From assembly GCA_030913385.1 (NCBI GenBank), contig CP133159.1, positions 3,556,584 to 3,620,583 of the forward strand: a DNA stretch of 64,000 bases, given 5' to 3'. The stretch comes from Cytophagaceae bacterium ABcell3. Its GTDB lineage: Bacteria > Bacteroidota > Bacteroidia > Cytophagales > Cytophagaceae. How positions within the stretch are numbered: the first letter of the stretch is position 1; every line of letters begins with the position of its first letter. Below the pieces are notes generated by a model. The model ran no database searches, was not told the DNA's origin, and worked only from the letters and a program-made list of their open reading frames with translations. Below, piece by piece: positions 44,655 to 63,510 of this stretch. A program made the translations under genes and the position numbers.

Positions 44655-44730
44655 AAACAATGGTACTTTTTTTATGATTCTATGCATTTTTAATTGCAAA
44701 ATTTTTCAAAGTATCGTACTTTATTTTTAA

Positions 44731-45756: not shown

Positions 45757-45759
45757 GCT

Positions 45760-48700: not shown

Positions 48701-49056
48701 CCGAAGCCCTGAGCAAAGAGGAAAAACGTGCCGCCGAGAATGACATGTCCGAAGCAGAACTGGAGTTGTTTGATTTGCTCAAAAAAGACAAGCTTACAAA
48801 AGGGGAAGAGAAAAGTGTAAGACTGGCCGCCAAAACACTCCTTCAGAAACTCTTTGACGCTAAAAACAAAATCCTGATTCAGGAATGGCACAAAGAAAAA
48901 GCCACACAGGAAAAAGTAAGAAGAGAAATACAAAAAGTCCTTGGTCAGCATTTACCTGAGCCCACTTATGACAGAATGGTATTTTCAGAAAAGGTTGGGG
49001 TTGCTTTCCAGCACTTCTATGAACTGGCTCAGATGGGAAGAGGGATAGCGGCGTAG
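45760..49056 (+). CDS. hsdR: Type I restriction endonuclease subunit HsdR
   Basis: 1098 residues, full length. The N-terminal nuclease domain has RPDLLLYVNG and MIELKN (D144, E159, K161). The translocase has Walker A HTQGSGKSYS (around 308-317), the Walker B box DEAHRTQ (417-423), FTGTPL and QTIARANRVLQGK. The C-terminal helical region ends with a segment that contacts HsdS/HsdM. It cleaves unmethylated DNA after ATP-driven translocation. It is intact, although the partner methylase gene is frameshifted as written. Confidence 0.95.
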   Translation: MAYLNESDIEEADIRFFVEQLGYTHINAWEKQLIGRSSLKEVVLKDRLKSSLQKLNTHLPEETIDYAISEITKSRATLTPVIANQEVYDLLKKGVPVKYKDAHGREEDDYVQVIDFSPENRNEFLVVSQLSIEYQQAENITRRPDLLLYVNGLPLVMIELKNATEKVRVGYDKNLRVYKQDIPQLFWYNLFVCISNGIETKVGSFNAPWGHFFNWLKLKDTAVSHEQPTKDEIEEESRKTGKRLSLKLFGEGLCNKDNLIDYFENFVLYSNKKVKIIAKNHQYLGVNNAITSLQNIDKNKGKLGVFWHTQGSGKSYSMIFFARKIRRKVTGNWSFLILTDRRDLDSQIYKNFLQTETIAETSDQKENYFRPSGREQLKEYLQSNRTFVFTLIHKFGIPSGKTFPKLTDRKDWIVIVDEAHRTQYKGLAENMRIGLPNAQYIAFTGTPLLRSELTKDWFGPYVSEYNFAQSIEDGATVPLYYKKSVPRVEQINPDLVGDAADILEEEDLSEEQRTKLDKEYSTLMTIVRRDDRLEEIARHIVQHFPYRLDVRDDEGNRKPMKAMVISIDKFTAVRMYEKVQYHLKEEIKNLRSKLLTEKDPEIKDRYKRAIDFMLETRMAVVISQEGSDKDEEKTFSDAGLNIRPHRELMNTPDEDGRDIEDYFKDPNNTYRIVFVTAMWMTGFDAPSVSTLYLDKPLQNHTLMQTIARANRVLQGKKNGLVVDYFGVFRNLRKALSVYAEGSKGKKDEKEGEEEFPVKEFEELLLLLEQAIKEAKAYCKDLGADIDEILNLGDMGFKDVERFQEYANIILEKDEYKKQLGLYVNTITSLYDSAKPEIYDHPEIKRNRDVLQYLRNVVDRNTDQDEAIERAKKKIEVLLDTSIQGKKDLEDAGDEKYVIDASKQIDLSKLDFERLRAEFPEKKHKNIQFADLRELLEKKLTQMMAQNKTRGGFLANFQKVIDDYNSGSLALEDAYEALVKQTEALSKEEKRAAENDMSEAELELFDLLKKDKLTKGEEKSVRLAAKTLLQKLFDAKNKILIQEWHKEKATQEKVRREIQKVLGQHLPEPTYDRMVFSEKVGVAFQHFYELAQMGRGIAA

Positions 49057-49083
49057 AATGACTATTCTAAGAAAATATAAAGC

Positions 49084-50526
49084 ATGGAGGAGAACAAGAA
49101 CACCAAATTTGAAATACCCATAGAAGGGTTAATTGAAGGTTTCCAGGCACATCTGAATCTGGAAAATAACAAAAGGATTATATTCTCCGGCCCCTTTGGG
49201 ACGGGTAAAACGTACTTTTTGAAAAAGTTTTTCGAAAAAGAAGAACGCTCTACATTTCACCTTTACCCTGTAAACTACTCTGTAAGCAGAAATGAAGATA
49301 TTTTTGAACTGATAAAATACGATTTGTTATACCAGCTTCTGGATGATAAACGTGAAATTGATTTTGAAAAGGTTGATTATACATTATCAGAAAGGACTTA
49401 TCTGACACTGAATAATCCATCTAATGACACCATCGTTTCAGGATTTCTTAAATATGTACCTAAGATAGGTAAAGTGGTTAGCGAGGTATATGATAACGTC
49501 CCAAAACTTGTTGATCAGATAGCTCCTAAAGAGTTAAAAAATGAAAAGAAAAAAGCAGAAGAAGTAGTAAGAAAAACAGAAAACACTACAGGTTCAGCTT
49601 ATGAATTTGATGATATCTCCGGGTTAATATACAAGTTGATTTTACAAGTCAAAGAAAAGCACGGAAAGGCAACTTTAATTATAGATGACCTCGACCGTAT
49701 CGACCCCGAGCATATCTTCAGGCTCCTGAATGTCTTTGCAGCTCACTTTGATATTGATGAAGAAGAAAATAAGTTTGGTTTTGACCAGGTAATTTTTGTT
49801 TGTGACATAGAAAACATACGAAACATTTTTTCAGCAAAATATGGACAAGATACTGATTTTAGTGGGTACATTGATAAATTCTTTTCCAGAGAGGTTTATG
49901 TTTTTGATAATTCTAAAATTATTGAAAATTTAGTAGAAGAGTTAATAAGAAAATACAAGTATTCAGATACGATTAACGATGTTTATGTTTTTGATAAAGA
50001 ACATATTATTGCAACAAAAGTTTTAAATAATGTACTTAAGATTTTAAGTAAAAAAAATGCAATAAATTTACGCTCATTACTCAAGTTTAGCACTTTCACT
50101 TATAGTTATAACCCTTATGAACAAGTTAGCTTTGGTTCCAGAAAATTTTATATGCACCAAATACATTTTGTAAATATATTTACAATTTTGACTTCAATGT
50201 TTGGGACTTATGCTGGCCTAGACAAGGCTTTCTCTAAAGTGCAAAATATGCATTGGGAGGTTGATAATGACAAAATCATAGGTTCCTTAATAATGATTAT
50301 AGATTGGAAACATCATCAATTCAACATATCCAGTAACATTTGCATATTTAGATACAACAATAAATATTATGAGTATCAAGTGTATGAGGAGCGAGATTTC
50401 TACTATGGCAGACTTTTTAGAAGCAAAAAAGATGACGAAAGCGATAGCCTAGTTTTCCCTGATGGTTTTATGGAGCTCTTTAGAATGGCCGCTATAGAAC
50501 TAAAAAATTTGAACATAATCAAATAA
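49084..50526 (+). CDS. KAP-family P-loop NTPase
   Basis: 480 residues. Walker A is GPFGTGKT (36-43) and Walker B is ATLIIDDLDRI (about 196-206), the DDxDR form typical of KAP NTPases; RLLNVFAAHFD and KFGFDQVIFVCDIENI follow. Unlike classic KAP proteins I see no membrane insertion. KAP genes occur in several defence loci, where they are thought to power or sense assembly at the membrane. It starts 27 bases after hsdR, so it may belong to the same transcript. The C-terminal third (about 330-480) is AT-rich and unrecognised. Confidence 0.75.
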   Translation: MEENKNTKFEIPIEGLIEGFQAHLNLENNKRIIFSGPFGTGKTYFLKKFFEKEERSTFHLYPVNYSVSRNEDIFELIKYDLLYQLLDDKREIDFEKVDYTLSERTYLTLNNPSNDTIVSGFLKYVPKIGKVVSEVYDNVPKLVDQIAPKELKNEKKKAEEVVRKTENTTGSAYEFDDISGLIYKLILQVKEKHGKATLIIDDLDRIDPEHIFRLLNVFAAHFDIDEEENKFGFDQVIFVCDIENIRNIFSAKYGQDTDFSGYIDKFFSREVYVFDNSKIIENLVEELIRKYKYSDTINDVYVFDKEHIIATKVLNNVLKILSKKNAINLRSLLKFSTFTYSYNPYEQVSFGSRKFYMHQIHFVNIFTILTSMFGTYAGLDKAFSKVQNMHWEVDNDKIIGSLIMIIDWKHHQFNISSNICIFRYNNKYYEYQVYEERDFYYGRLFRSKKDDESDSLVFPDGFMELFRMAAIELKNLNIIK

Positions 50527-50691
50527 GGGTATTCAAACTCCTTGCTCTTACTTGCGAAGGATTTTGGCCTATTTATAAACAGCTATATGCTATCTCCGAT
50601 TTAATAACCTAAATCGTCTTCCGATCAACGATATTGAAGAATATGAAAAGAATCTGTTATATTGGCCTGTTGATAAACAGAGACAAAGAAA

Positions 50692-51567
50692 ATGAACAAA
50701 CAACTTGATATCCTGAAGCTGCAACTTGAAGATTTTTTTGAAAGGTCAAAAAGTGAAACAGTTTCAGTTACAGAAAGAAACACAAGGAGTTCTTATGATA
50801 TAAACAAAAGCATCTATGAACTTGAAATGCATATTCTGAAACTGAAAAAGCAGTACCGGGTAAACAGAAGCCTGAACTCTTCCATCGAATCTCCTGAAAT
50901 ATCTAAAAGCTTTAATCAGAATCAGGTTGAATTTTTTCGCTCTCATGACTACCTGTTAAGTTTTTTGGTTTATCTGTGCCAGTCAAGTGAAGATGATGCG
51001 GAGCAGTTAAGAAACATTCTTTTCAAATATACCGAATCTATTTCCAGCCGTCTTACATACAAAGATTTAATTGTTACAGCAACCGGTGCCACAAGATGCT
51101 TCACCAATCAACGCTTTGCATTAAAAGAGTTAAGAGAATTAGGGCTGGTTTTCAAAAAAGATAAAGAAAATAATAAAAGAACCATCCTCCCAACACCGGT
51201 GGGAATGCTCATTGTTGCTTATCATTTAAAAGATTTGAATGAAAGCGCTGGTAATTTTTTGAACGAAATGAGAAATGGGGCAGCATATTTTGACAATAGT
51301 CTTTATAACACACTTGATAAATTAAAACGCAATCCTGAATCATTTTTAAAGAATGTTCAAAATAAATTTCCATGCACAAATTTTGAAATAAATATTGAAG
51401 AAATTTTATCAGATTATAGCGAATATATCTTGAAATATATCACTGTAATAGATACAGGACTTAAAATTGAAGAAGGGTTTGAAGAAGCTTCTCAGAAATA
51501 CTATGATGTTTTAAAGCAAAATTATGACCTATCATACAAATTAAAACTGGATTTGTGGCAAGGGTGA
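50692..51567 (+). CDS. Unknown protein next to the KAP NTPase, possible winged-helix
   Basis: 291 residues. The N-terminus is a coiled coil (ELEMHILKLKKQYRVNR). The centre (about 118-180) looks like a winged helix: YKDLIVTATGATRCFTNQR, ALKELRELGLVFKKDKENN, LPTPVGMLIVAYHL. The C-terminal ~110 residues are helical. It follows the KAP gene by 165 bases in the same direction and has similar composition, so a functional pair is possible. I do not recognise the family. Confidence 0.55.
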   Translation: MNKQLDILKLQLEDFFERSKSETVSVTERNTRSSYDINKSIYELEMHILKLKKQYRVNRSLNSSIESPEISKSFNQNQVEFFRSHDYLLSFLVYLCQSSEDDAEQLRNILFKYTESISSRLTYKDLIVTATGATRCFTNQRFALKELRELGLVFKKDKENNKRTILPTPVGMLIVAYHLKDLNESAGNFLNEMRNGAAYFDNSLYNTLDKLKRNPESFLKNVQNKFPCTNFEINIEEILSDYSEYILKYITVIDTGLKIEEGFEEASQKYYDVLKQNYDLSYKLKLDLWQG

Positions 51568-51768
51568 AAATAGTGTAAAACCACTAACTAACTTTGATTA
51601 TTCAAAGATTAATTTAACCGCTACATAGCACTTAAAACATGTAAAAATGATAAGGCCAATAATTTCAATAGTACCATTTATACTATTTTTCTTATGTAAA
51701 TAGATTTCAAGAATTTAATTAAGCTTTTAAAATTGTAATTTTTTATCATAGGGTTTGGTTAGGTGAAT

Positions 51769-52005
51769 TTAAACAAAATAAGAAGGCCTTTCATAACGAG
51801 GCTTATTAATTGATACATATGAGCACAATCCCTTCTGTTCTAAAGCCATTTTCTTCATTTTTTCTACAGCGTGTCTTCCGGCACTTTTATATGTATAAGT
51901 ATACTCTTTAAAATTCCGGAATCGGAGAACAATAAAATCATCCCCTATACAATAAGCCGTTACACCGGATTTTTTTCCACTTCTGCTTGAGTATGGTGTC
52001 ATCAT
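51769..52005 (-). CDS. Small KTSC-like protein
   Basis: 78 residues. The pattern FIVLRFRNFKEYTYTYKSAG followed by HAVEKMKKMALEQKGLCSYVS resembles KTSC domains, which are short and of unknown role, sometimes fused to or near RNA-modifying or phage proteins. The match is partial. Same direction as the 44-residue membrane peptide 70 bases upstream. Confidence 0.45.
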   Translation of the reverse strand: MMTPYSSRSGKKSGVTAYCIGDDFIVLRFRNFKEYTYTYKSAGRHAVEKMKKMALEQKGLCSYVSINKPRYERPSYFV

Positions 52006-52045
52006 AATGTTTTCCGTTTTATATTTTAATTATCACAAATAATAA

Positions 52046-52073
52046 TAATCAGGGAGCAAAAGCTCCCTGATTA
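52046..52073 (-). terminator. Terminator of the small membrane peptide gene
   Basis: A perfect 12-bp stem, TAATCAGGGAGC with GCTCCCTGATTA, and a 4-base loop lie directly after the stop codon at 52076; T-rich sequence follows on the minus strand. Confidence 0.7.
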
Positions 52074-52075
52074 TG

Positions 52076-52210
52076 CTACCTTCCAAATGCTTTAGCCAAA
52101 AGATATACTGCAAGAGCAAAGCCAACAAGCACAGCTATTGGGCCTGCTGTTCTAACACATACATCTTTATAGCAAGCGGCAACTTCATTTTTATGTAAAT
52201 CTATCTTCAT
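52076..52210 (-). CDS. 44-residue single-pass membrane peptide
   Basis: The sequence begins MKIDLHKNEVAACYKDVC and has one hydrophobic helix (about 22-41, TAGPIAVLVGFALAVYLLAK), ending KAFGR. It has two cysteines before the helix. A strong terminator right after it supports it as a real transcription unit. It could be a small toxin, a holin-like peptide or a regulator; nothing in the sequence decides. Confidence 0.5.
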   Translation of the reverse strand: MKIDLHKNEVAACYKDVCVRTAGPIAVLVGFALAVYLLAKAFGR

Positions 52211-52270
52211 AAAAAACTTTTTTGTTCAACATCGGAAGTTCCGCCGAATCCGTAGTTCTGAAAATTATGT

Positions 52271-52370
52271 TATATTTGAGTGCGAATCAGAATAACATCA
52301 CCGGATCGCCTTCGGATCACCCGGACATTTACAACAAGGCATGTTCAAAATATTTGGACATGCCTTTTAG
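52271..52370 (+). ncRNA. Candidate small RNA between a -7 element and a terminator
   Basis: TATATTTG (52271-52278) is a perfect -7 element, although a -33 TTG is not seen. About 55 bases after the expected start, AAGGCATGT (52336-52344) pairs exactly with ACATGCCTT (52358-52366), followed by TTTTAGTTT. The ~85-base transcript would also contain CCGGATC...GGATC...CCGG pairing. No convincing reading frame lies within. Role unknown. Confidence 0.3.
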
Positions 52371-52477
52371 TTTGGCGTAGACCTGTAGTGAGTCGGAACC
52401 TTTACGGTTTTACCTCCCACTTTTTTAGTATGTGCAGGCACATACACTTTCTTTTTACCTTCGGAAGTTTTTCCCAT
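52367..52477 (-). CDS. Very small basic protein, doubtful
   Basis: 36 residues from the ATG at 52477: MGKTSEGKKKVYVPAHTKKV and onward to HYRSTPN. Basic, with a VPxH...KTV...HYRS pattern that looks protein-like. The frame stays open upstream for another 20 or so codons without a normal start. It ends at the hairpin of the candidate small RNA on the other strand. Confidence 0.35.
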   Translation of the reverse strand: MGKTSEGKKKVYVPAHTKKVGGKTVKVPTHYRSTPN

Positions 52478-52572
52478 TTTAGCAAAAGCATTATTGTTCC
52501 TGGTTCGTCCAGTACCGGAAATACTTACGGGTGTATCTCAACCAATAATGACATAAATATACTATCAAAAAC

Positions 52573-52603
52573 TTGTCAAGACAAATTTAATATGTAAATT
52601 TGT
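52573..52603 (+). promoter_or_regulatory. Self-overlapping promoter and operator of the XRE/ImmA gene
   Basis: The promoter is TTG (52573-52575), 19 bases, TAAATTTG (52595-52602), a full match to the Bacteroidota consensus. The palindrome ACAAATTT-(7)-AAATTTGT (52581-52603) overlaps the -7 element, and TTGTC/GACAA-type sequence lies at its outer edges. This is the layout expected for autorepression by the XRE protein encoded 53 bases downstream. Confidence 0.7.
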
Positions 52604-52655
52604 CAACAAACTATTCACATTTTCGTTATAAAAAGAAGCAATCTTCGGTAAGAAA

Positions 52656-53705
52656 ATGAAAACCTACGGTCAACGTCTTAAGTCAGCACGAATAATGAAT
52701 GGATTATCCCTTCAGAATCTGTCAGATAAGCTAAAAAACAGCGTGAGCAAGCAAGCTTTATCTAAATATGAAAAAGATGTAATGAAGCCTTCAGGTGAGC
52801 TTTTTCTGGAGATATGCAATATACTGAATGTTCGTCCTGATTATTTTACCAGAGAAATATCTGTAGAACTGGAAAACATAGAATTCAGAAAATATCAGCG
52901 AACCCATGAGAAGCAAATAGATGCTGTTAAGGAGAAAACCAAAGACTACCTTGAAAGGTATCTTGAACTAGAGACCTTGTCTGGCGTAACTTGTAATTTT
53001 GTCAACCCTGTCAAAGTTTCATCAATCAACTCTAAAGAAGATGCGGAAGAGGCCGCTGAACAATTGCGCATAGCGTGGAACTTTGGGGAGAACCCAATTC
53101 CCAACGTAATTGAAATGCTGGAAGATAATTGCATCAAAGTTTATGAAACTGCCGCACCGGATGAATTTGATGGCTTATCAGGGTTTGTAAAAGAGAATAC
53201 CCCACTAGTCGTATTAAACACCTACAACAGGGATGTGAAGCCCGACAGAAAGCGATTTACCGCACTTCACGAGCTTGCGCATTTGGTATTAAACATTCCT
53301 GCCAATACCGAACACAAAACCAAAGAGAAGCTTTGCCATGCATTTGCAGGGGCAGTATTGTTTCCTAAAAAAGCTTTTATGAGAGAGTTTGGCAGCCACC
53401 GCTCCGGCATTAACTACAAGGAGCTTCTCATTCTGAAAGAAAAATGGGGCATGTCTGTTCAGGGCATGGTAGTCAGAGCACGGGACTTAGGCTTAATTAC
53501 TTCCCACACCTATCAAAAATTCTGGAAGGATTATGCACATTACAAGAAAAATGAACCTGATGTGTTTAAAGGTGAAGAAAAAAGCAAAAGATTTGAGCAG
53601 TTACTGTTGAGGGCTGTTGCAGAAGAAAAGATGACACTGACCAAAGCTGCTGTGCTAAACAACATGAAACTGGCGGAATTTCGTGATTTTTTAGAAAAAA
53701 TATAA
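52656..53705 (+). CDS. XRE-family regulator with ImmA/IrrE metallopeptidase domain
   Basis: 349 residues. A helix-turn-helix (about 4-60: YGQRLKSARIMNGLSLQNLS, SKQALSKYEKDVMKPSGEL) is fused to a zinc peptidase domain with HELAHLVLN (HExxH at 205-209) and CHAFAGAVLFP. Such proteins repress a toxin gene and can be inactivated by or carry out proteolysis. It is followed 30 bases later by a PIN-domain gene, and a palindrome lies over its promoter, so it is likely the antitoxin/regulator of the pair. Confidence 0.88.
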   Translation: MKTYGQRLKSARIMNGLSLQNLSDKLKNSVSKQALSKYEKDVMKPSGELFLEICNILNVRPDYFTREISVELENIEFRKYQRTHEKQIDAVKEKTKDYLERYLELETLSGVTCNFVNPVKVSSINSKEDAEEAAEQLRIAWNFGENPIPNVIEMLEDNCIKVYETAAPDEFDGLSGFVKENTPLVVLNTYNRDVKPDRKRFTALHELAHLVLNIPANTEHKTKEKLCHAFAGAVLFPKKAFMREFGSHRSGINYKELLILKEKWGMSVQGMVVRARDLGLITSHTYQKFWKDYAHYKKNEPDVFKGEEKSKRFEQLLLRAVAEEKMTLTKAAVLNNMKLAEFRDFLEKI

Positions 53706-53735
53706 TAAGTTTAGCCTGACAACCAGCAATGAATA

Positions 53736-54224
53736 ATGAAGTTAGCCGTTACAGACGCTAATATTTTTATAGATTTAATCAGGATCGACTGCTTACACTA
53801 CCTTTTTGAATTAAAGATCGAGCTTCATACAACCACTGAGGTTTTAAATGAACTACATTCTTACCAGGAAGAGGAAGTAAGAAAATATCACGCAAAAGAA
53901 CTGCTAATTATAGCTCATGGCGCGGCCTTAGAAAAATCACTTTCCCGAAACATCAGCAAAAAACTGGCAGAAGCAGATAAGTCCGTTATTTATTATGCCA
54001 AGCATCTTGGTGCGGGGATTTTAACCGGTGATTACAACTTAAAGAAGTTCATAGAAAAAGAAATTGAAGTACATGGCATTTTATGGGTGGTTGACCAATT
54101 TGTAGAGCAAAAACTTATCTCAGAAAATCATGCTCATTTATCCCTTTCCTCACTGATGAAGTTAAACAAAAGACTCCCAAAGAAAGAGTGTGAGAAACTA
54201 TTAAAGAAGTGGAAAGTTCCGTAA
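53736..54224 (+). CDS. PIN-domain protein, probable toxin of the XRE/ImmA pair
   Basis: 162 residues. The PIN fold acidic residues are visible: D7 in VTDANIFIDL, E in TTEVLNELHSY (about 40), D in KLAEADKSVIYYAK (about 86) and D in AGILTGDYNLKKF (about 101). PIN domains are RNases, and many are toxins. The partner upstream is an XRE/ImmA protein rather than a classic small antitoxin, which is less common but known. Its stop lies about 30 bases before the locus C repeat. Confidence 0.8.
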   Translation: MKLAVTDANIFIDLIRIDCLHYLFELKIELHTTTEVLNELHSYQEEEVRKYHAKELLIIAHGAALEKSLSRNISKKLAEADKSVIYYAKHLGAGILTGDYNLKKFIEKEIEVHGILWVVDQFVEQKLISENHAHLSLSSLMKLNKRLPKKECEKLLKKWKVP

Positions 54225-54586: not shown

Positions 54587-55951
54587 CTACCCTCCCAACT
54601 CGAACTCGCTTGAGTAGGCATCAACTTTGTTCTTCTTCATTGCCTTTACAGGCTGAATTGATACGCTCATGGTGACATCTTCTTTAAAAATTCCTGTCAG
54701 AGCTTTTACTATATCAGCTTCAATATCCTCATCGCTCCAACCGGTAAATGTTAAGTGGTGAAGCTTGTTTTGATGGAGGGTAAAACCTGCCAGGGGAAAG
54801 AAGGTCATCCCCCTTGATATCTCAACGTTATTTACTAATATGCCGCTTTTCGTATAAAAAGGAACTGGGGAGCGGGCTTCTAGATCTACTAAGTACGGGA
54901 CTCCATTCTCGACTTCCATACTACAGAAATCACCTGTCCGGTAACGTATAAGTGGGAGAAATGGATTTATCCCGCCCGTTATTACCAATTCTCCTCTTTC
55001 GCCGTAAGGCAGCAAAATGTCTTTGCCCTTATCAAAAACCTCCAAATACAGTTCAGGCCTGATGGCCCTATACCTACTGCCTTCTGCATAGGCAATCATT
55101 CTACATTCAGTGAGCGAGTAAAGATCTATTACCGGACAATTAAAGTAATCTTCAAGCCGCTTTCTGATGCCTTTAGTCAACTTCATGGCAGAAGAAACCA
55201 AGGCTTTAGGGGTGATAGATGGTTTTAAGTTCAGTAAATCATAAAACGCAAACGGGTCTCCGGTAAGAATTTGGGGATTATACTTTTCAAGATACCGCAG
55301 CCTATGGGAAGACTCCCTCCAATCATCAGCATTAAGGTTTATTTTTAAAACCCCTGCACCAGACAAGTAGGTAGACAAAGAAGCGTATGTAAGGGTTTCT
55401 CTTTGGGAACAAATCAATGCTATAGCTACTTGCTCAGGGCTGCCGTTGAGTTTTATACCGTAATTGTGCAAAATGGACTCCAACTGAGGTATCCAACATG
55501 CCTGAGTAGCGGGATCAAATAAAACATCCATTGCAGGATCTGTTGACCCTGAGGTTTGGTGTACCAGAAGATCACCTATATTGGCTTCTGTGGATACAAA
55601 ATCCCATGGAAAAGTTGCGACTTCTTTTCTCTTGATTGTTGGCTGGTCTTTGAGACTGCCACTTCTATTTTTATAGTAAGGAACTGTTTTAATACACCAT
55701 GAAAGGTAATCGTTAATCCACTCAGGTTGGGTACCTATTTCCCAAAACTTCTTTTCTCCTACTATTTTCTTAGCATATTTTTTTACCTGCTCAAGATGCT
55801 TAGTATTTAGCCTGTCTCCGCTCAAAAAATTAAAGGCCGGTGCATATTCATCTTGCCTGAGCTTGTTCAAGAATGCCAGATCTTTTATAAGAGGGAAACG
55901 CTCATTATCGGTAAGCCCTATAACTGGTTTTTTACTCACGACTGTAAACAT
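54587..55951 (-). CDS. PaaK/F390-synthetase-like adenylate-forming enzyme
   Basis: 454 residues from the ATG at 55951 (overlap of 20 bases with the upstream gene); a frame extension to 56020 lies wholly inside that gene. Phosphate-binding loop HQTSGSTDPAMD, then DLYSLTECRMIAY, GERGELVITGG and RYRTGDF, which are the A3, A5 and A7-like motifs of the phenylacetate-CoA ligase group. The C-terminal lysine region reads VKAMKKNKVDAY. It would activate a carboxylic acid as an acyl-AMP; with a chorismatase-like enzyme in the same operon, an aromatic acid is a reasonable guess. Last gene of the eight-gene operon. Confidence 0.8.
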   Translation of the reverse strand: MFTVVSKKPVIGLTDNERFPLIKDLAFLNKLRQDEYAPAFNFLSGDRLNTKHLEQVKKYAKKIVGEKKFWEIGTQPEWINDYLSWCIKTVPYYKNRSGSLKDQPTIKRKEVATFPWDFVSTEANIGDLLVHQTSGSTDPAMDVLFDPATQACWIPQLESILHNYGIKLNGSPEQVAIALICSQRETLTYASLSTYLSGAGVLKINLNADDWRESSHRLRYLEKYNPQILTGDPFAFYDLLNLKPSITPKALVSSAMKLTKGIRKRLEDYFNCPVIDLYSLTECRMIAYAEGSRYRAIRPELYLEVFDKGKDILLPYGERGELVITGGINPFLPLIRYRTGDFCSMEVENGVPYLVDLEARSPVPFYTKSGILVNNVEISRGMTFFPLAGFTLHQNKLHHLTFTGWSDEDIEADIVKALTGIFKEDVTMSVSIQPVKAMKKNKVDAYSSEFELGG

Positions 55952-56507
55952 TTGCTGATTCACGTGCTTTTTTCTCTGCCATTTGTCTCCTAATCTCCCG
56001 TATCCTTTCCATAGATTCATTGGTCTCCTTTAATACAGCTTGCCTTTTAACCGTATCTAAAGCTTCTAACCTATCGGCTGCCTCTATCGTTGATTCCCCA
56101 GAGGGAGTAATTTCACACCTTGCCAATGCAAGTCGTATGAACTCTTCTGCCCTGTCTTCGTCTTCTACCCATTCTCTGGATTTAACATATGCGCAGACCT
56201 GCTTTAGATCTTCAAAAAGAAACTGATGAATCTTTGGCACTAAATGAGGTTGTCCCTTAAAAAAATCAAACGAGAAAAACCAACATGCCAGTTGCATGGA
56301 GGTAAGGTGGTTTACATCATCTTCCAAATCAGCAGTAACGGAAGGCAACTCAGAATCATCAACGCTGAAGTCTCCATAAACCCTTCTGAAGATATCCAAT
56401 AACAAAACGCTGGTCTGTAAATCTTCTTCTGGATGTGTTTCCTGATTGTAAAAAAACACTTCAGGGCATTTTTTAAGGTGATGTATTAAATCGCTAATAT
56501 ATATCAT
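55932..56507 (-). CDS. Unknown acidic helical protein of the rSAM/MoxR operon
   Basis: 191 residues, acidic and apparently all-helical. The C-terminal third (about 145-188) is a charged, coiled-coil-like segment (LEALDTVKRQAVLKETNESM, IREIRRQMAEKKARE). It sits 3 bases after the VWA gene and overlaps the ligase gene, so it belongs to the operon. I do not recognise the family. Confidence 0.65.
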   Translation of the reverse strand: MIYISDLIHHLKKCPEVFFYNQETHPEEDLQTSVLLLDIFRRVYGDFSVDDSELPSVTADLEDDVNHLTSMQLACWFFSFDFFKGQPHLVPKIHQFLFEDLKQVCAYVKSREWVEDEDRAEEFIRLALARCEITPSGESTIEAADRLEALDTVKRQAVLKETNESMERIREIRRQMAEKKARESANVYSRE

Positions 56508-56510
56508 AGT

Positions 56511-58277
56511 TTATGTTCTAGCATGATAATGATTATGAGAAAATTCCGCCGCAAAATCCAGAAGTTGCTGTTCATTTGTAACGTAGTGAACATGCCAGCC
56601 CATGTCTTTTAACCGTTTGACTTCTTCCTCATGCCAATTTCGGCTTGAGTGTAGAACCAAAGTACCCACACCACCTGCATTTTCAAGCGCTTGTTCAATA
56701 ATTGTCCAGTTCGTCTTGCCGTTGGTTTTATCTTCACTTTTTAACATCCTAAAAATGTCATCGTCGGTAACAACTATAACATGCGATTTTTCTTTTCTAG
56801 GTTTACCAAAAGGAGACTCTAAGCGAGGTACTCCATACGCATACCCTGTTCCCAAGTAAGAGGTCAAAACGGATAAAACTTCCTTTTCCGAAGACCTAAA
56901 CCCTTCTGTTTCCATAAAGCTCCCTGGTTCTCCCGATAAACAACCCATCACTTTAGCACCAGCCCGAAGTGCAGATAGGCCGATAACAGTTGCCGCCAGG
57001 ATTGGCCATGAAAAACGTTTGCTGGGATTTCCCATAGAGCCAGAACAGTCTATACCGATATAAACATCCAGAGGTTTTTTATTTTCAGCATCATTATCTT
57101 CTTCACCATAAACCCTCTTAACGGTATTATATCCTGGAAAAATCTCAGGCGCACCAATAGCGGTTTCTACCCAATCTATTTCGTCCATAGGGTCACTCAC
57201 ATCCCAGCTTTCAGTACCTTCGGGCAGGTTAAATGATTTAGGGTTTGTGGATTCCAGGGGAAAAGAGATTAGGTGAGGTAAAGCTATTTCTTTATAATAG
57301 TTGTTAATCAGTTCTTGTTTATCAATTTTGGGGTTTACTTGCCTAAACAAGTCTACATACTTACCGGGATCCAAATAACGTTGCTGCGGTCCTTCGCCAC
57401 TGTCTTTTAATTTATCCAAACCTAAGTCGGCAGCCTTTGATGTGGCAGCTTTTGATTCGCCATGGACAGATACAGCTTCCTCTCTGGGGTCAATAGCACC
57501 TGCTATGCCATCTAAGTCCATTTCTGCCAATCCTGCAACTACTCCCCCTCCTTCTCCGGCATGCTCTGAATCTAGATATACCACAAAAACTTTTCTTGCA
57601 TCCTCATACTCTTTATCCTCCATAAGGTAAGGGTACATTAAAGCTGCGAACCGTCCTGCACCATCTAACCAATTTTTGGAATAACTCCGTATGAGAGAAG
57701 CTGCAAGTGAAGCATCGGCATCAATTGCGGCAGATAAACCTCCGTTTATGGAAACCAAACTTCCACGTTCCAGTTTCCACAGATACTCGTAGGTTCGCAT
57801 ATAGAACATCCATGTTTTTGAAGTAAGCTCTTCAACTTTTAGCTTCCGGTAAACTTCAGCCATGTTTAAGTTTTTCTTCCGCTGAAGGGTATCGTTGATC
57901 AATAGGTCGGTATACAAATTGGCCACAAAAGGTGCCCGGTCTTCAATGTCTGCCAGTCCCCACCTTATCCTAGAAAGGAGTATGGCATTATCGTACAAGT
58001 TGGCCGGAGAATAAATGTGGTGACCAATCTCATGCGCCAATACTTCCACAGAAAAATCTACAATTCCCTCTTTATGAATTTTCTCAAGATCGATAACAAT
58101 CCTGTGATCGCTCAGCCTAATCATAGCGAAACTTCCGGTAAGACCTTCATAAGATGCCTCTTCTGAACTGAGACACCATACCGGCTCCCTTAGCTTCACA
58201 TAGGGACTCCAATTAAGCTTAGCGATAGGCCAGTCTTCCTTCCATTTCAACAGAATATTTTCCAGTGAGTCCTCCAT
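56511..58277 (-). CDS. VWA-domain protein with N-terminal zinc peptidase-like domain
   Basis: 588 residues. The N-terminal part holds HEIGHH (82-87, HExxH type) with NLYTDLLIND about 40 residues later as a likely third-ligand region. The C-terminal von Willebrand A domain begins at VYIGIDCSGSMGNP (MIDAS DxSGS from D410), with the T in YLGTGYAYG and the D in VTDDDIF completing the metal site. VWA proteins work with MoxR ATPases as chaperone pairs that insert metals or remodel complexes; the MoxR partner is two genes upstream. The combination with a peptidase-like domain is unusual. It starts 2 bases after the preceding gene. Confidence 0.8.
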   Translation of the reverse strand: MEDSLENILLKWKEDWPIAKLNWSPYVKLREPVWCLSSEEASYEGLTGSFAMIRLSDHRIVIDLEKIHKEGIVDFSVEVLAHEIGHHIYSPANLYDNAILLSRIRWGLADIEDRAPFVANLYTDLLINDTLQRKKNLNMAEVYRKLKVEELTSKTWMFYMRTYEYLWKLERGSLVSINGGLSAAIDADASLAASLIRSYSKNWLDGAGRFAALMYPYLMEDKEYEDARKVFVVYLDSEHAGEGGGVVAGLAEMDLDGIAGAIDPREEAVSVHGESKAATSKAADLGLDKLKDSGEGPQQRYLDPGKYVDLFRQVNPKIDKQELINNYYKEIALPHLISFPLESTNPKSFNLPEGTESWDVSDPMDEIDWVETAIGAPEIFPGYNTVKRVYGEEDNDAENKKPLDVYIGIDCSGSMGNPSKRFSWPILAATVIGLSALRAGAKVMGCLSGEPGSFMETEGFRSSEKEVLSVLTSYLGTGYAYGVPRLESPFGKPRKEKSHVIVVTDDDIFRMLKSEDKTNGKTNWTIIEQALENAGGVGTLVLHSSRNWHEEEVKRLKDMGWHVHYVTNEQQLLDFAAEFSHNHYHART

Positions 58278-58279
58278 TT

Positions 58280-59233
58280 TTACAATTTGTATAAGTATAA
58301 ATAGTGGGAACTTTTTCTGGTAAAAACCAAGGTGTTGTTTTTGACTACACTTGAAGTAACATCCTCAAATCTTGCATGTTGCTTCCCATACTGTGATAAA
58401 AAGTTTTTGAATGCCTCCGTTTGCCCAACAATGTCCTCGTACAAAACAGGAACACCAGAGAGAAAAATTTTTCCAAAATTATCTGCAAAAAAGGCGTAAC
58501 TATTGCTCTTGTCGCTTGCCACTATTTCGTTCGCATATAACGTTACCAAAGGAGGTGTATAAAAAAAGCCACCATACCCAACAAAGCCTCCAGCCTCACC
58601 AATAAAGCTGCCGTTGTCCACATTTGCCCACTCCTGTTTAGAGGTTTTCCCTATGGCCGCAACCCCTTTGCAGGCTTTTTGTAGTACCTTCTTCAGCTCT
58701 TTTCTAAGACTTTGATAAGCTTCCTTAGCCCTGCCTTTCAAATGTGCCATACCGCAAAACCATGCGCAAATTCTACCTACAGAAAGAAATTCATCAATTG
58801 ATTGACAATGTGGCACCACTTTTTCCATCTGAGAGACCCAACGCAAAGCGCTTTCCGGCTGATGAAAGAGTATAGACTCGACCGCAGTATTGATAGCCCT
58901 TAAGGCTCTTAAAGGAGATTCTAAAAAAACCATTGGATTTTTTTCACACAAACTCCAAGCTGCCCGATACTCCTTTTCGTAAACAACTCCAGCTTTGCTC
59001 CCTAGCAGCCTTAGTAGCTCAGTATAAAAAGCCTTTGTTATTTGGGGCAGAGCATTTGCATCTACTGCAAGCAGTTCCTTCACAGCAGGCTCAACAACCC
59101 CAACCATCCAATGAGCAATGCAGCTTCCATCTATGGTTCCATGCCTGATTTCACTTTCCAGGTAGAGTTGATTGTAAACAGTGGCATTTTCCCTTAAATG
59201 GTCGACTAAAGGGGAGTAACTTACTTTTTCCAT
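58280..59233 (-). CDS. Unknown protein between MoxR and VWA genes
   Basis: 317 residues from the ATG at 59233 (another at 59242); both overlap the end of the MoxR gene. Largely helical, with a few notable stretches: HGTIDGSCIAHWMVGVVEPA, and the glycine-rich NGSFIGEAGGFVGYGGFFYT (about 213-232). It has no hydrophobic transmembrane segment. Conserved position between a MoxR ATPase and its VWA partner suggests an adaptor or substrate of that chaperone; this is inference. Family not recognised. Confidence 0.65.
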   Translation of the reverse strand: MEKVSYSPLVDHLRENATVYNQLYLESEIRHGTIDGSCIAHWMVGVVEPAVKELLAVDANALPQITKAFYTELLRLLGSKAGVVYEKEYRAAWSLCEKNPMVFLESPLRALRAINTAVESILFHQPESALRWVSQMEKVVPHCQSIDEFLSVGRICAWFCGMAHLKGRAKEAYQSLRKELKKVLQKACKGVAAIGKTSKQEWANVDNGSFIGEAGGFVGYGGFFYTPPLVTLYANEIVASDKSNSYAFFADNFGKIFLSGVPVLYEDIVGQTEAFKNFLSQYGKQHARFEDVTSSVVKNNTLVFTRKSSHYLYLYKL

Positions 59234-60813
59234 TGCAGCCACCGTTTATAGTTCATATACCTTTGGTGAAAATACTTTAATTTGAGAATATCATCATGCC
59301 GGTAACCATAAAGCTTCTTCTCCTGCGACCAATTGTACAGCTGCTTTTCAATATCCAGCAATCTTTTATCAATTTCTTTCATTGACACATTTTCCAGACC
59401 TTGCTTGAACTGTTCATCAAAGGCGTCCATTGGGTCGTCCGCATCCAAGCCCTGACTCATGTACTCATCGCACGATAGGTCAAAAAGCTTCCGCAACCAA
59501 ACAATTCTATCGACTCTGTAACTTTCATTTCCTGCTTGGTCAAAAAAGGGCGATTCAAGATGAGGCACCAAAGAATCATGAAGGATAAAAGGGAGAATCT
59601 GGCGGATATCTTCCAGTTCTACCTGCTTATTCCCTCTAAAAAAAGCCAATGCCTTGGAGTAAATTATTAGGGTCATAATCTTTCTTACCGAAACCCCATT
59701 CAGGGTTTGAGAACCCAGGTCTTTTACATGATCCTTGCCTGTCTCCTTTCTGAAAAGAGTTCTAAAGTCCAAGCCGGAAAGCTTTGCAGTATCTTTGGTC
59801 ATATACTCGATCTTATCGGAAGAAGACTCAAAAAACTCAAACTGCCTGCAAAAGAACTCCAACCTCTTTCTTAAAGGGGCAGAAATCGCTATTCCCCTAA
59901 TTTGCTCATGTACGATATCCATTTCTTCTTCCGTGAAAACAATTTCATCTGGAATCATGGACTCAGGCTTAAAGTTAAGCTCTATTCTTCTCTGCAAGTC
60001 CTCTATAAATCTGGTATTGAAATGGAAAGCACGAATAACTACATCTATTCTGTCTTTTAGTGCTTCAATCACCTGATAGGTTCCCCCACCCGCATCATCA
60101 TTGGCGGTAAGGTACCAAGCTGCTTGTGGACATTCATAGATCTGGTCAAATATCTCCGCATAATTGTCAGACAAAACAGTAAGCAAAGCAGATTGTGTAC
60201 GGGTAGGAATACGGTTGTATTCATCAATAATTTTCACCTTCATCCCCAACCATTTACGCCAAGCTATTCTTATATCGGATGTTTTTTCTGCTTTTACCAT
60301 ATCAGCAGGCAAAGGGTGACCTAGCAAGTCAGATATAGTCATCTGAGGCTGACCATGCTGAATAGCCCTCATAACATCTATTTTAGAGTACCCGGCCAAT
60401 AAGCCCATTAATAGCGAAGTAGCAGTCTTGCCCCGCCCTGGCCCTCCAACAATTAGACATTTACCCCTAACAGCTAAGGTTAAAAGCGGTATCAGAACAA
60501 AACTTGAATAACTCTGCCCTTTCGGCAAAGTCACTTCCACTTTTCTATCGCCAAAAGTGAACCTTCTGGAATCCCCATCTTCATATTCTATATCATAAAA
60601 AGGACTTATAATAGCTGTGTTAGTAATCCAGAAATAAGCCTGTCGGAGTTTCTCATCCAGCCCCATTTGTTCTTTTGAGGCATCAGATACTTCTTCACTG
60701 GAATACAAATCTTTTATATCGAAAGTAGAAGGCTCGGCTCTTTCCTGTGGGTTAGTGGGCGCAGAGGGCACTTTTTGATACCCCCCAAAAGTTTTATTTG
60801 AAAAATCATTCAT
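59221..60813 (-). CDS. MoxR-type AAA+ ATPase
   Basis: 530 residues from the ATG at 60813; the frame opens earlier with a TTG that overlaps the upstream stop, but the ATG start (MNDFSNKTFGGYQKV) is more likely. Walker A GGPGRGKT (123-130), Walker B KIIDEYNRIPTRTQSALL, sensor 1 WYLTANDDAGGGTYQV with ALKDRIDVV. The C-terminal lid is extended (about 350-530). MoxR ATPases work with VWA proteins to activate or assemble client enzymes. In this operon likely clients are the radical SAM enzyme or the unknown proteins. Confidence 0.88.
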   Translation of the reverse strand: MNDFSNKTFGGYQKVPSAPTNPQERAEPSTFDIKDLYSSEEVSDASKEQMGLDEKLRQAYFWITNTAIISPFYDIEYEDGDSRRFTFGDRKVEVTLPKGQSYSSFVLIPLLTLAVRGKCLIVGGPGRGKTATSLLMGLLAGYSKIDVMRAIQHGQPQMTISDLLGHPLPADMVKAEKTSDIRIAWRKWLGMKVKIIDEYNRIPTRTQSALLTVLSDNYAEIFDQIYECPQAAWYLTANDDAGGGTYQVIEALKDRIDVVIRAFHFNTRFIEDLQRRIELNFKPESMIPDEIVFTEEEMDIVHEQIRGIAISAPLRKRLEFFCRQFEFFESSSDKIEYMTKDTAKLSGLDFRTLFRKETGKDHVKDLGSQTLNGVSVRKIMTLIIYSKALAFFRGNKQVELEDIRQILPFILHDSLVPHLESPFFDQAGNESYRVDRIVWLRKLFDLSCDEYMSQGLDADDPMDAFDEQFKQGLENVSMKEIDKRLLDIEKQLYNWSQEKKLYGYRHDDILKLKYFHQRYMNYKRWLQWKK

Positions 60814-60857
60814 TTGAAACACTTTAATAAAAAATATCAGATTGCAATATACAGAAT

Positions 60858-62618
60858 TCAAGCAAATTGACTACTGACTTCTTTTTTACTGAGCTGTACA
60901 TTTTCTCTTAAGCCACCAGACACACCCAAACAATACCTACAAGAATTCAGGGGTTTGTTATCGTTTAAAAAAGCCAGCACTTTTTCCTTAAAATTAGGAG
61001 TATCGATTGGTATCCCATCAAGTTGGGAGTAAGTGCCAGAACTAAGTTTCTGATCTTTTTTTAGCATACCCAGATATTCGTCCATGTAAGCTGCCCGGGT
61101 ACACTTATAAAAATAACCGTTTCTGATAATATGACAGCGGTGACGCATCCAGCAATCATCATATATTACCTGAACCTGACTTTTATCAGTAAAAGGTTCA
61201 TCAATAAAAATTTCATTGAACTGGTCTACCTTTTTAATATTTACCACAATACCATATTGTCTTGCTTTGTTTTTTATCAATTCCAGTGTTTTGGGCTTGA
61301 CTGGAGCACTTACATAATTAGAAATGGTTAACTGGTCTATTTGCTGCCAAAAGGCTTCGCTCATCTTATGTATCAACAAACCATTCGAAACTACCCTAAC
61401 CTGCTCCGTAACACCATGCGATTTAACAACCCTGATAATTTCATCTAATTCGGGATGCAAGGTAGGCTCCCCTCCTGCTATCTTAAATACATCAGGGCGC
61501 AGGTTATTTTTTATAAACTTACAAATCTCATCCACTTCCGAAACACGCATAAATTTCTGAGGGTTAAATGGAGAAATGTTACAACAGTCACGACAGCGTA
61601 GATTGCAATGTTCGGCAATATGAAGTTCAAAAGACTCTGTTCTTATCTTTCCGTCTTCCAGGAAATACTTAGGTTTACCAATTTCCTCAAACTCCCCTTT
61701 TTTAACAAAAACCGCTTCCATTTCAACCAATAGCTCATCCCTGCATACATCGGCTTTCATAAAAGAGAGTTTACAACTTGGGGACACTACTTTTTTAAGG
61801 TATTGGCGTAAGAAAGCTGCATCCTCTTCATTCTTGTAATAAGTCCTCAAAAGCACGATATCCTCTAATGCAAAACCATACTGAACGCCATATTTTTTCA
61901 AATTAAACTGACTGCCCAGAACCCTGAGGTTATGAATCGTTTGGTTTACCTGGTCGTAAAGATTTGTATGCAGAGAATTTTCCCCTACCACACTGGCGGT
62001 GCCAGCGGAAATTAAAACGGTCTGGTTTAAGTTTTTATAAATCGCCCCCCTACTGAAAAGAGGTGGGCACTCGCCATACTTTTTTGAATAATGTCTGGCA
62101 GCTACCTGATCTTTATTTTCCAGAAAAACTGGTTGGTTTTCAACGGCCAGAAATTCCAACCTTATCTTATCAGAAGTATAACCTACTGCACTTGCTACAG
62201 GAACAGCAATACTATGTAACTGTTGGCTATAGTACTCAACAAAAGCACTATGTCTCCCCCTGTTAAACTGCTGATAAATATTGGCATCCGGAGAATTTGA
62301 AACTGGCTTTAAAATATTCGGCACATAATGCCAAACCCTCAAAAGGTAATGATTAGGGTGATTTTCTAAATAGGAGAAAACCTGTCTGTACAATCCACTG
62401 GTAATCTCTTCAACTTCCCCTTCTTTATATGGAAGCTCTATTAAACCAAAAACCCCATTTTCAGATATGGTAATTTCAAGGTCTCCATGGGTTTCCTGTT
62501 TGGAAATATTTTCGCCAGCCCATGCATCTACAAAGTAATCCTCTACTGAAGTCCTGCGAAGAAATTGACCATGCGCAGGCGTCTGAAGACTAGGGTCTGA
62601 GTTGACAATAAACTGCAT
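60858..62618 (-). CDS. Fusion of a chorismatase-like (FkbO/Hyg5) domain with a radical SAM domain
   Basis: 586 residues. Residues ~1-310 match the chorismatase family: LRVWHYVP (93-100), YQQFNRGRH (115-123), CPPLFSRGAI (184-193), LISAGTASVVG (202-212) and VCRDELLVEMEAV (291-303). Chorismatases remove pyruvate from chorismate to give hydroxybenzoate or dihydroxycyclohexadiene acids. Residues ~330-560 are a radical SAM domain with C338, C342 and C345 in CNLRCRDC and the GGEPTLHPEL motif; near the end, CRYCLG may bind another cluster. I know of no characterised enzyme with this pair of domains. It lies 7 bases after the PIG-L gene. Confidence 0.82.
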   Translation of the reverse strand: MQFIVNSDPSLQTPAHGQFLRRTSVEDYFVDAWAGENISKQETHGDLEITISENGVFGLIELPYKEGEVEEITSGLYRQVFSYLENHPNHYLLRVWHYVPNILKPVSNSPDANIYQQFNRGRHSAFVEYYSQQLHSIAVPVASAVGYTSDKIRLEFLAVENQPVFLENKDQVAARHYSKKYGECPPLFSRGAIYKNLNQTVLISAGTASVVGENSLHTNLYDQVNQTIHNLRVLGSQFNLKKYGVQYGFALEDIVLLRTYYKNEEDAAFLRQYLKKVVSPSCKLSFMKADVCRDELLVEMEAVFVKKGEFEEIGKPKYFLEDGKIRTESFELHIAEHCNLRCRDCCNISPFNPQKFMRVSEVDEICKFIKNNLRPDVFKIAGGEPTLHPELDEIIRVVKSHGVTEQVRVVSNGLLIHKMSEAFWQQIDQLTISNYVSAPVKPKTLELIKNKARQYGIVVNIKKVDQFNEIFIDEPFTDKSQVQVIYDDCWMRHRCHIIRNGYFYKCTRAAYMDEYLGMLKKDQKLSSGTYSQLDGIPIDTPNFKEKVLAFLNDNKPLNSCRYCLGVSGGLRENVQLSKKEVSSQFA

Positions 62619-62625
62619 TTTTTTA

Positions 62626-63510
62626 CTATCTGATTTTCCAGAAGCGCTCTACAAAAGCATCACTGGAATTATATAATACTTCTCGAATACTGGCCATATT
62701 TTCACCAAATAAAACAGGCCATTCTGTTTCATAAAAAGAGATGGCCTCCATTTTTGTATTAAATTGTTCTTCTGTATGCCCTATCTGAAATGGCACTAAA
62801 TTTACCCACGGCAGGTTGTTTTCAGTTTTACGCTCACATCTCAAATTGCGGATCTCCTGTTTATACTTTTCATTACTAAGGCCTTGGTCATTTTTATCAC
62901 CCATATAATTTTTAACGAAAGCAATCTCACAGTCAGAAAGTTGCTCAGGTATCATTTGGGAAGATATCATTTCTTTATCTTTTTCAGAAAATAAATATCC
63001 TAAATTTTGCAACCTAACATTTGACCAGCAAGGCACCAAAGCATAGGGTAAGTCCTCGTAATAGCAAATGGCTTCCCCAAAATGGGAGCAGTCTAAACTG
63101 GAAAGGAACAACTGATGGTGGTCAATATGGCCACCTACACCGAGAGGAAAATAAATTTGAGAAGGTTTGTATATTTCTATACAAGAAAGCACTGAATCCA
63201 ATAAACCTGCTACCTTTCCACATTTCAAATCATGATGGAATAAAATACTGGAAAAGCTGTTGTTTTGGGCATCCCGAAAAGGGGCATCAACAAAGTCTAA
63301 ATGAGCAAATTTACAACCTAAAAACTGTAGTGCTTTTATATCGTCTTTCTTTCTTTTTTCATAAAGCTCAGCCTGAGAATGCCTTCCGCAAGAAGTAAAA
63401 ATAGAAATTACTATCACCTCATTCCCTTCTGTAACCCAATGATTGATTGAGGAGCCACAGCTTAGTATGGCATCGTCCAGATGGGGCGAGAATATGAGGA
63501 TTGTCTGCAT
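62626..63510 (-). CDS. PIG-L family deacetylase
   Basis: 294 residues. The zinc-binding motif SPHLDDA (H10, D12, D13) at the very start and GGHIDHH (H128, H131) are the metal ligands of the PIG-L/LmbE family, which deacetylate N-acetylglucosamine-containing substrates (GlcNAc-PI, mycothiol and bacillithiol precursors, some antibiotics). It starts 3 bases after the glycosyltransferase stop. A glycosyltransferase followed by a deacetylase is the usual order for making a glucosaminyl conjugate, which supports a sugar-decorated product. Confidence 0.9.
   Translation of the reverse strand: MQTILIFSPHLDDAILSCGSSINHWVTEGNEVIVISIFTSCGRHSQAELYEKRKKDDIKALQFLGCKFAHLDFVDAPFRDAQNNSFSSILFHHDLKCGKVAGLLDSVLSCIEIYKPSQIYFPLGVGGHIDHHQLFLSSLDCSHFGEAICYYEDLPYALVPCWSNVRLQNLGYLFSEKDKEMISSQMIPEQLSDCEIAFVKNYMGDKNDQGLSNEKYKQEIRNLRCERKTENNLPWVNLVPFQIGHTEEQFNTKMEAISFYETEWPVLFGENMASIREVLYNSSDAFVERFWKIR

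Follow-up and report, generated by a model that had tools for sequence, protein, structure and literature searches.

A gene of Cytophagaceae bacterium ABcell3 that joins a chorismatase to a radical SAM enzyme raises the question of what such a two-domain protein makes, and on which molecule its second half acts. The gene lies in a stretch of 64,000 nucleotides (hereafter the window), which corresponds to positions 3,556,584-3,620,583 on a single 5.115-Mb contig. A first-pass annotation had placed it at 60858-62618, with the strand left unstated, and this interval is indeed one exact ORF: it runs unbroken from 62618 to 60858 on the minus strand, begins with ATG, encodes 586 aa and includes its stop codon, and plus-strand frame 1 over the same coordinates carries stops throughout. 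The fusion itself, as that annotation proposed, is borne out by Pfam, NCBIfam and PDB sequence searches, which concur in placing a chorismatase at residues ~23-304 and a radical SAM domain at ~320-578 (Table 1). Start-type codons in residues 296-340 occur at 297 and 300 only; as both lie within the chorismatase core, translation of the radical SAM half as a separate polypeptide appears unlikely. The AlphaFold model of the fusion has intermediate confidence (pLDDT 72.5, pTM 0.57), and pLDDT falls under 50 in the cluster loop (residues 338-353) and in the region around the linker.

Table 1. Features of the fusion gene and its neighbours (window positions)
Feature	Position	Strand	Basis
Fusion gene, chorismatase + twitch radical SAM, 586 aa	60858..62618	-	single ORF
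Chorismatase domain, residues 23-304	61707..62552	-	TIGR04444 stretch 23-303; Hyg5 match 29-304; structure matches
C292-R-x5-E299 motif	61722..61745	-	alignment with Hyg5
Linker, residues 305-319	61662..61706	-	residues 276-314 at pLDDT under 50 in AlphaFold model
Twitch radical SAM domain, residues 320-578, SpeY/HygY-like	60885..61661	-	sequence and structure matches
CxxxCxxC cluster site, Cys338/342/345	61584..61607	-	alignment
Twitch cluster Cys489, 506, 560, 563 and putative HygY-type Cys495	60930..61154	-	alignment
PIG-L family deacetylase, directly upstream of the fusion (7-bp gap)	62626..63510	-	PF02585 3.4e-15
MGT-family glycosyltransferase, 410 aa	63514..64000, on past the window end to genome position 3621329	-	family matches
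MoxR ATPase, unknown, VWA-like, unknown, DVU_1553/PaaK-like AMP-ligase	54587-60861	-	VWA from our own reading

On sequence grounds, the N-terminal half is best described as a chorismatase in the wider sense, and is not assigned to the TIGR04444 subfamily. The four motifs from which it had been recognised were all located between residues 93 and 301 (LRVWHYVP, 93-100; YQQFNRGRH, 115-123; LISAGTASVVG, 202-212; CRDELLVEME, 292-301). A profile search, which the first-pass annotation had recommended as a check, gave a significant score for PF21168 (FkbO_Hyg5-like_N; residues 31-158, E=4e-21, 75.8 bits against a gathering cut-off of 27), while the NCBIfam FkbO/Hyg5 subfamily model TIGR04444 matched at E=1e-44 but, with 153.1 bits, lies below its cut-off of 325, as does a free-standing chorismatase from the same family (L006; 159.3 bits). 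The PDB sequence search returned Hyg5 and FkbO at 2e-26 to 7e-24 over residues 25-304, and the AlphaFold model superimposes on Hyg5 with a Z of 19.7 (rmsd 4.2, 248 residues, over 18-287) and on 5ag3, 5a3k and 4bps with a Z of 19.1-19.7.

We aligned the domain with other chorismatases in a set of 87 rows, comprising the fusion, Hyg5 and FkbO as PDB fragments, and 84 loci that include one identical pair. E299, R94, R122, R190, R293 and E301 are invariant in all 87, and the loss of the glutamate and arginine positions that would have spoken against a chorismatase is thus not seen; Cys292 is common to 86 rows. This cysteine aligns with that of the Hyg5 VCRSDLLVE motif, and Glu299 with the glutamate (Hyg5 Glu334) to which the available text of PMC7170507 assigns a catalytic role. 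The same text gives Gly164, Gly231 and Cys318 of Nat-Hyg5 as marks of the CH-II/Hyg5 subfamily, a Gly-Gly-Cys signature that is not found in the fusion, which has Ala144, Gly206 and Cys292 (Nat-Hyg5 Gly164 corresponds to Hyg5 Gly173 and fusion Ala144, as mapped by numbering offset and alignment). Together with Glu299, these residues form an Ala-Gly-Cys-Glu (AGCE) pattern that is present in 76 of the 87 rows, mostly proteobacterial, including the fusion and the Azoarcus row (L017). Gly-Gly-Cys-Glu occurs in eight (Hyg5 and seven others), Gly-Ala-Ala-Glu in FkbO alone, and two further rows have other combinations. According to the portion of PMC3949708 available, the ArcB enzyme of Azoarcus gives both 3-HBA and 4-HBA; the 87-row set contains neither XanB2 nor ArcB of Azoarcus BH72, its Azoarcus row being L017. 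From the AGCE pattern we infer a hydroxybenzoate product (3-HBA, perhaps with 4-HBA) rather than the diene-diol of FkbO.

In a tree of 86 of the 87 rows (L021 omitted), the fusion domain joins the free-standing chorismatases L006 and L007, identical proteins from two genomes of the same family, with a support of 100/99, and stands outside the group containing FkbO, Hyg5 and the actinomycete rows. Its branch is long (1.33), and its deep placement is at best tentative in view of long branches and composition warnings. Both L006 and L007 adjoin an apparent fatty-acyl-AMP-ligase-like gene. A 688-aa chorismatase ORF in L021, considered as a second fusion, was judged to be a start-choice artefact in GC-rich DNA. 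Elsewhere in the phylum, another genome encodes a very divergent free-standing chorismatase (L005:1057-2226; branch 3.7-4.6) with Gly-Gly-Cys-Glu, next to an apparent methyltransferase gene.

The C-terminal half belongs with the twitch enzymes SpeY and HygY. Both of its previously noted cysteine sites were located, the CxxxCxxC as CNLRCRDC at residues 338-345 and the later CxxC as CRYC at 560-563. PF04055 (Radical_SAM) matches at 9e-10, with 39.4 bits against a gathering cut-off of 29.5; SpeY (7wzv) is retrieved from the PDB at 4.6e-40 over residues 320-578; and the AlphaFold model matches SpeY 7x0b over 316-576 with a Z of 25.3 (rmsd 2.4, 244 residues). SpeY (PDB 7wzx, 7wzv and 7x0b) and HygY act on aminocyclitol or sugar carbinols, the former as a dehydrogenase of spectinomycin and the latter as an epimerase of hygromycin B. 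Within the plasmid collection, the top-ranking relative was a radical SAM protein from Streptomyces sp. SAT1, which we call HygY-like because its gene lies ~9 kb from a predicted gene for APH(7'')-Ia, the hygromycin kinase. The identity of the fusion half to SpeY and to this HygY-like protein is ~30%.

The twitch cysteines were aligned among the fusion, the HygY-like protein, the SpeY fragment and one more relative, and the alignment was widened by 15 further relatives from the 83 matching loci, one of which (L123) contributed almost no aligned letters. At the position of Cys183 in the HygY-like protein, which is Ser in SpeY, the fusion has Cys495; this residue adjoins a two-residue deletion relative to HygY, so that its equivalence depends on the distance to Cys506. 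Of 14 of the further relatives, seven (L109, L111, L113-L116, L121) carry Cys here, and the other seven (L110, L112, L118, L122, L124, L190, L191) carry Ser, Thr, Val or Ile. The cysteine mutated in HygY is reportedly Cys183, its hydrogen donor. A title in the reference list of PMC10991966 describes HygY as a twitch epimerase whose dehydrogenase activity is unmasked by mutating one cysteine. Cys495 would accordingly favour an epimerase over a dehydrogenase in the fusion. A SpeY/HygY-like twitch gene with the cysteine spacing of the fusion, Cys included, was also seen on an IMG/VR contig (L109:2965-3852), where it adjoins what appear to be another radical SAM gene and an aminotransferase/glycosyltransferase gene.

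The fusion is the last of six operon genes on one strand, with computed gaps of -26, +2, -8, +3 and +7 bp. In the order of transcription, these encode an APH-like kinase, an NMN-adenylyltransferase-like protein, an AsnB-like amidotransferase, the MGT glycosyltransferase, the PIG-L deacetylase and the fusion; the first three lie upstream of the MGT gene, beyond the window. Sequence strings that match active-site motifs occur in all five partners. The PIG-L protein carries HLDD and HIDHH, and its nearest solved structures include the teicoplanin pseudoaglycone deacetylase (Orf2) and Dbv21; pseudoaglycone deacetylases act on aryl-linked GlcNAc. The amidotransferase scores 366 bits with TIGR01536 (cut-off 267), below two of its paralogues in the genome (500 and 453), which is compatible with a specialised amidation.

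With the fusion, its intact motifs, the family placements and the operon layout as fixed points, a route can be proposed whose products, substrates and order of steps are inferred. The N-terminal domain would convert chorismate to pyruvate and hydroxybenzoate (3-HBA, perhaps with 4-HBA). The amidotransferase would probably convert the acid, or a derivative, to an amide, a role that is a guess, and the MGT glycosyltransferase would add an N-acetyl amino sugar to the phenol, the acceptor again being a guess, after which the PIG-L enzyme would take off the acetyl group. Using SAM and its [4Fe-4S] cluster, the C-terminal domain would then remove hydrogen from a carbinol carbon of the sugar; return of hydrogen by Cys495 on the opposite face would amount to epimerisation, and without such return the enzyme would be a dehydrogenase. 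Kinase and nucleotidyltransferase would afterwards phosphorylate and nucleotidylate the product. The fusion would thus be a two-step biosynthetic enzyme that closes an operon for a glycosylated, hydroxybenzoate-derived metabolite, probably an amino-sugar hydroxybenzoate or -benzamide that is phosphorylated and nucleotidylated. We consider the chances of this frame as a whole, including hydroxybenzoate formation, the sugar, its epimerisation or oxidation, and the kinase and nucleotidyl steps, to be evenly balanced, and those of each detail to be lower.

The first-pass annotation had suggested counting the genomes that carry the same fusion, and no second one was found among the matches listed in genome, plasmid and viral searches, which overlap in genomes and score limited candidates; this suggests that the fusion is rare. 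Against 395 genomes of the phylum, the fusion protein retrieved its own genome and one free-standing chorismatase at 1e-20, and against 59 relatives, of which none but the source genome belongs to its genus, its own genome and two free-standing chorismatases. Genome contigs searched with the chorismatase alignment yielded at least 597 stretches with at least 485 relatives, and among the best 80 no alignment extended past residue 346. No match to the radical SAM half or to any other operon gene was found at 1e-6 in 83 chorismatase loci (L005-L087). Thirteen plasmid records matched, none with more than 47% cover, and viral contigs searched with the fusion protein gave two stretches and no relative. 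The radical SAM half alone was found in 2 of 395 class genomes at 1e-15 and in 3 of 395 phylum genomes at 1e-20, the own genome being included in both; in the viral search, the best 80 of at least 339 relatives showed no chorismatase or other operon-gene match at 1e-4. The nucleotidyltransferase was found in its own genome only among the 59 searched, being absent from the 58 other relatives, and on plasmids it matched four records, all haloarchaeal, at no more than 53% cover. In the literature searched, in so far as the texts were available, no chorismatase-radical SAM fusion was encountered, the sole co-mention being in unrelated passages, and the matches listed held nothing on the operon. 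The domain combination thus appears to be new and to stand in an undescribed small operon, both of its halves being of known enzyme kinds.

How does this proposal compare with the one originally made for the gene, namely that a single protein forms a ring from chorismate and then modifies it by radical chemistry? As written, that claim is unlikely, because the inferred hydroxybenzoate lacks an sp3 carbinol. Since a glycosyltransferase and a PIG-L deacetylase are encoded in the operon, the radical step would probably come later than the work of other enzymes and target a sugar that is already in place. The claim could be upheld if the chorismatase made a cyclohexadiene-diol or another non-aromatic acid, on whose ring carbinol the radical SAM domain would act within the same protein. 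The direct fusion is suggestive of channelling, a diene-diol has two carbinols, and the relatives SpeY and HygY act on ring carbinols. Moreover, the available text of PMC3949708 states that alignment alone is insufficient for an accurate prediction of the chorismatase reaction, so that the product is not fixable in this way. However, Gly206 and Cys292 are shared with Hyg5 and 84 other rows, whereas FkbO has Ala at both positions, and the operon glycosyltransferase and deacetylase would be left without a clear role before the radical step. We regard this reading as improbable.

The nucleotidyltransferase (CTP_transf_like) invites a more specific version of the sugar-based route, in which the product is an NAD mimic: a hydroxybenzamide on an epimerised amino sugar would be phosphorylated and then adenylylated by the NMN-adenylyltransferase-like enzyme. 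Such a look-alike would have the hydroxybenzamide in place of nicotinamide, the epimerised amino sugar in place of ribose, and a pyrophosphate link to a nucleoside; if real, it could poison the NAD-using enzymes of competitors or act as a cofactor. This scheme assigns a task to each operon gene. The nucleotidyltransferase has archaeal NMN adenylyltransferases as its closest matches (1f9a, 4.9e-25; 1ej2, 6.4e-22) and keeps the HNGH and SATEVR strings, and dinucleotide cofactors are commonly made by a kinase and then a HIGH-fold adenylyltransferase. Nevertheless, the protein scores below the NadM-type cut-offs (TIGR01527, 101.9 against 181.2 bits; NF002243, 120.0 against 127). It is encoded (L003:13107-14036) as a tandem of a diverged N-terminal copy and an intact copy of one domain (BLASTP 8e-8, in a single comparison), and Asn replaces a Trp that is present in both archaeal enzymes in the printed alignments and that stacks nicotinamide in archaeal NMN adenylyltransferases. 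Because of the diverged second copy and the Trp-to-Asn change, the enzyme looks remodelled, and its substrate may be quite different. A hexosaminide also differs from a riboside. Furthermore, PF01467 enzymes include cytidylyltransferases (PhpF and Fom1, according to the accessible text of PMC6697681). An NAD look-alike is thus an unlikely form of the product.

A third possibility is that the chorismatase domain has become catalytically inactive and acts as a binding or docking module for its radical SAM partner, or is joined to it merely for co-expression. At position 205, Ser is found in 84 of the 87 rows and Gly in two, Ala being unique to the fusion, and the long branch and the sub-threshold TIGR04444 score would agree with a loss of function. 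Yet the fusion departs from the commonest residue at only 3 of 35 tabulated positions (145, 205 and 240), among which 205 alone is well conserved, and E299, C292, R293 and R122 are kept. We consider an inactive domain decidedly improbable.

The glycosylated hydroxybenzoate route, as proposed, stops at the fusion, and it may be asked whether the genes downstream of it (Table 1) belong to the same pathway, with the AMP-ligase (54587-56020) activating the hydroxybenzoate. The block is on the same strand and would begin 44 bp beyond the stop codon of the fusion if MoxR is translated from its ATG, and a chorismatase and an AMP-ligase occur together in the arcuflavin pathway, as given in the part of PMC3949708 available. 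However, all five genes are also clustered in another genome (G202, locus L100) at 35-78% identity, with no chorismatase or radical SAM match in 19.9 kb, and we rejected the block as a part of the pathway, its membership being very unlikely. The L100 block lies just downstream of a NadR-like gene (180.6 bits, cut-off 341) and a PnuC gene (105.7, cut-off 42.45), a single case of adjacency that may be due to chance. In three further genomes, the VWA-like gene, which has no Pfam match, alone matches in the 11-20 kb read, besides a weak radical SAM match in L103. A search of 395 class genomes with the ligase gave the own genome only at 1e-60, yet G202, of the same class, has the ligase at 55% identity, and such a search is hence not exhaustive.

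Finally, partial matches (PADLOC pVip, 1e-14, residues 331-433; NCBIfam viperin, 5e-12, 330-433), along with restriction and other defence-type genes at 41-54 kb, prompted the idea of a defence island in which the radical SAM half would be an antiviral enzyme resembling viperin. It was rejected as scarcely credible, since the score with viperin NF038283 (45.6 bits) lies below the cut-off of 180, and over its whole length the domain matches SpeY (Z 25, against 9.7-11.1 for the listed viperins). The region at 41207-54224 does have the look of a defence island: type I restriction genes and a YhcG-type nuclease gene are found there together with a KAP ATPase that matches PADLOC PDC-S20, an RmrA-like HTH/ImmA gene and a gene whose DUF3368 match lies below cut-off. 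Within it, HsdM is represented at 41207-43311 by a pair of overlapping ORFs that lie in different frames and match consecutive portions of the N6_Mtase profile, and the methylase gene looks split.

If the glycosylated hydroxybenzoate proposal is correct, the operon would tie shikimate-derived aromatics to radical sugar chemistry of the aminoglycoside type, probably outside the actinomycetes. It is compact and expressible whole, and its product can be sought directly. Cys495 would also offer a test case, in a distant relative of HygY, for a single cysteine that sets an epimerase or a dehydrogenase outcome.

Compared with known systems, the N-terminal half resembles chorismatases of the XanB2 and Hyg5 types, which form 3-HBA, alone or together with 4-HBA, from chorismate, in its fold, motif order and catalytic Glu, and in the Gly and Cys that are present in Hyg5 but absent from FkbO. 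It differs from them in bearing a C-terminal radical SAM domain, in Ala205, which is unique in the set, and in neighbouring genes that are not polyketide or pigment genes; furthermore, Hyg5 has Gly where the fusion and the Azoarcus row have Ala (position 144). The C-terminal half shares with SpeY and HygY the CxxxCxxC site and the four twitch cysteines, and Cys495 may correspond to the HygY cysteine, but it is attached to a chorismatase, has two residues fewer before Cys495 and comes from a Bacteroidota host, and no aminocyclitol genes were recognised in its operon. BtrN, described in the available text of PMC10991966 as the dehydrogenase of butirosin biosynthesis, is likewise a radical SAM dehydrogenase of an aminoglycoside pathway, and is more distant from the fusion (2-DOIA-bound 4m7t, Z 13.1) than is SpeY. 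With regard to the operon, neighbouring genes for sugar transfer and N-deacetylation are also seen with teicoplanin Orf2 and Dbv21 and with BshA/BshB, the glycosyltransferase and deacetylase pair of bacillithiol biosynthesis; set against these pairs, the glycosyltransferase that accompanies the PIG-L enzyme here is MGT-like.
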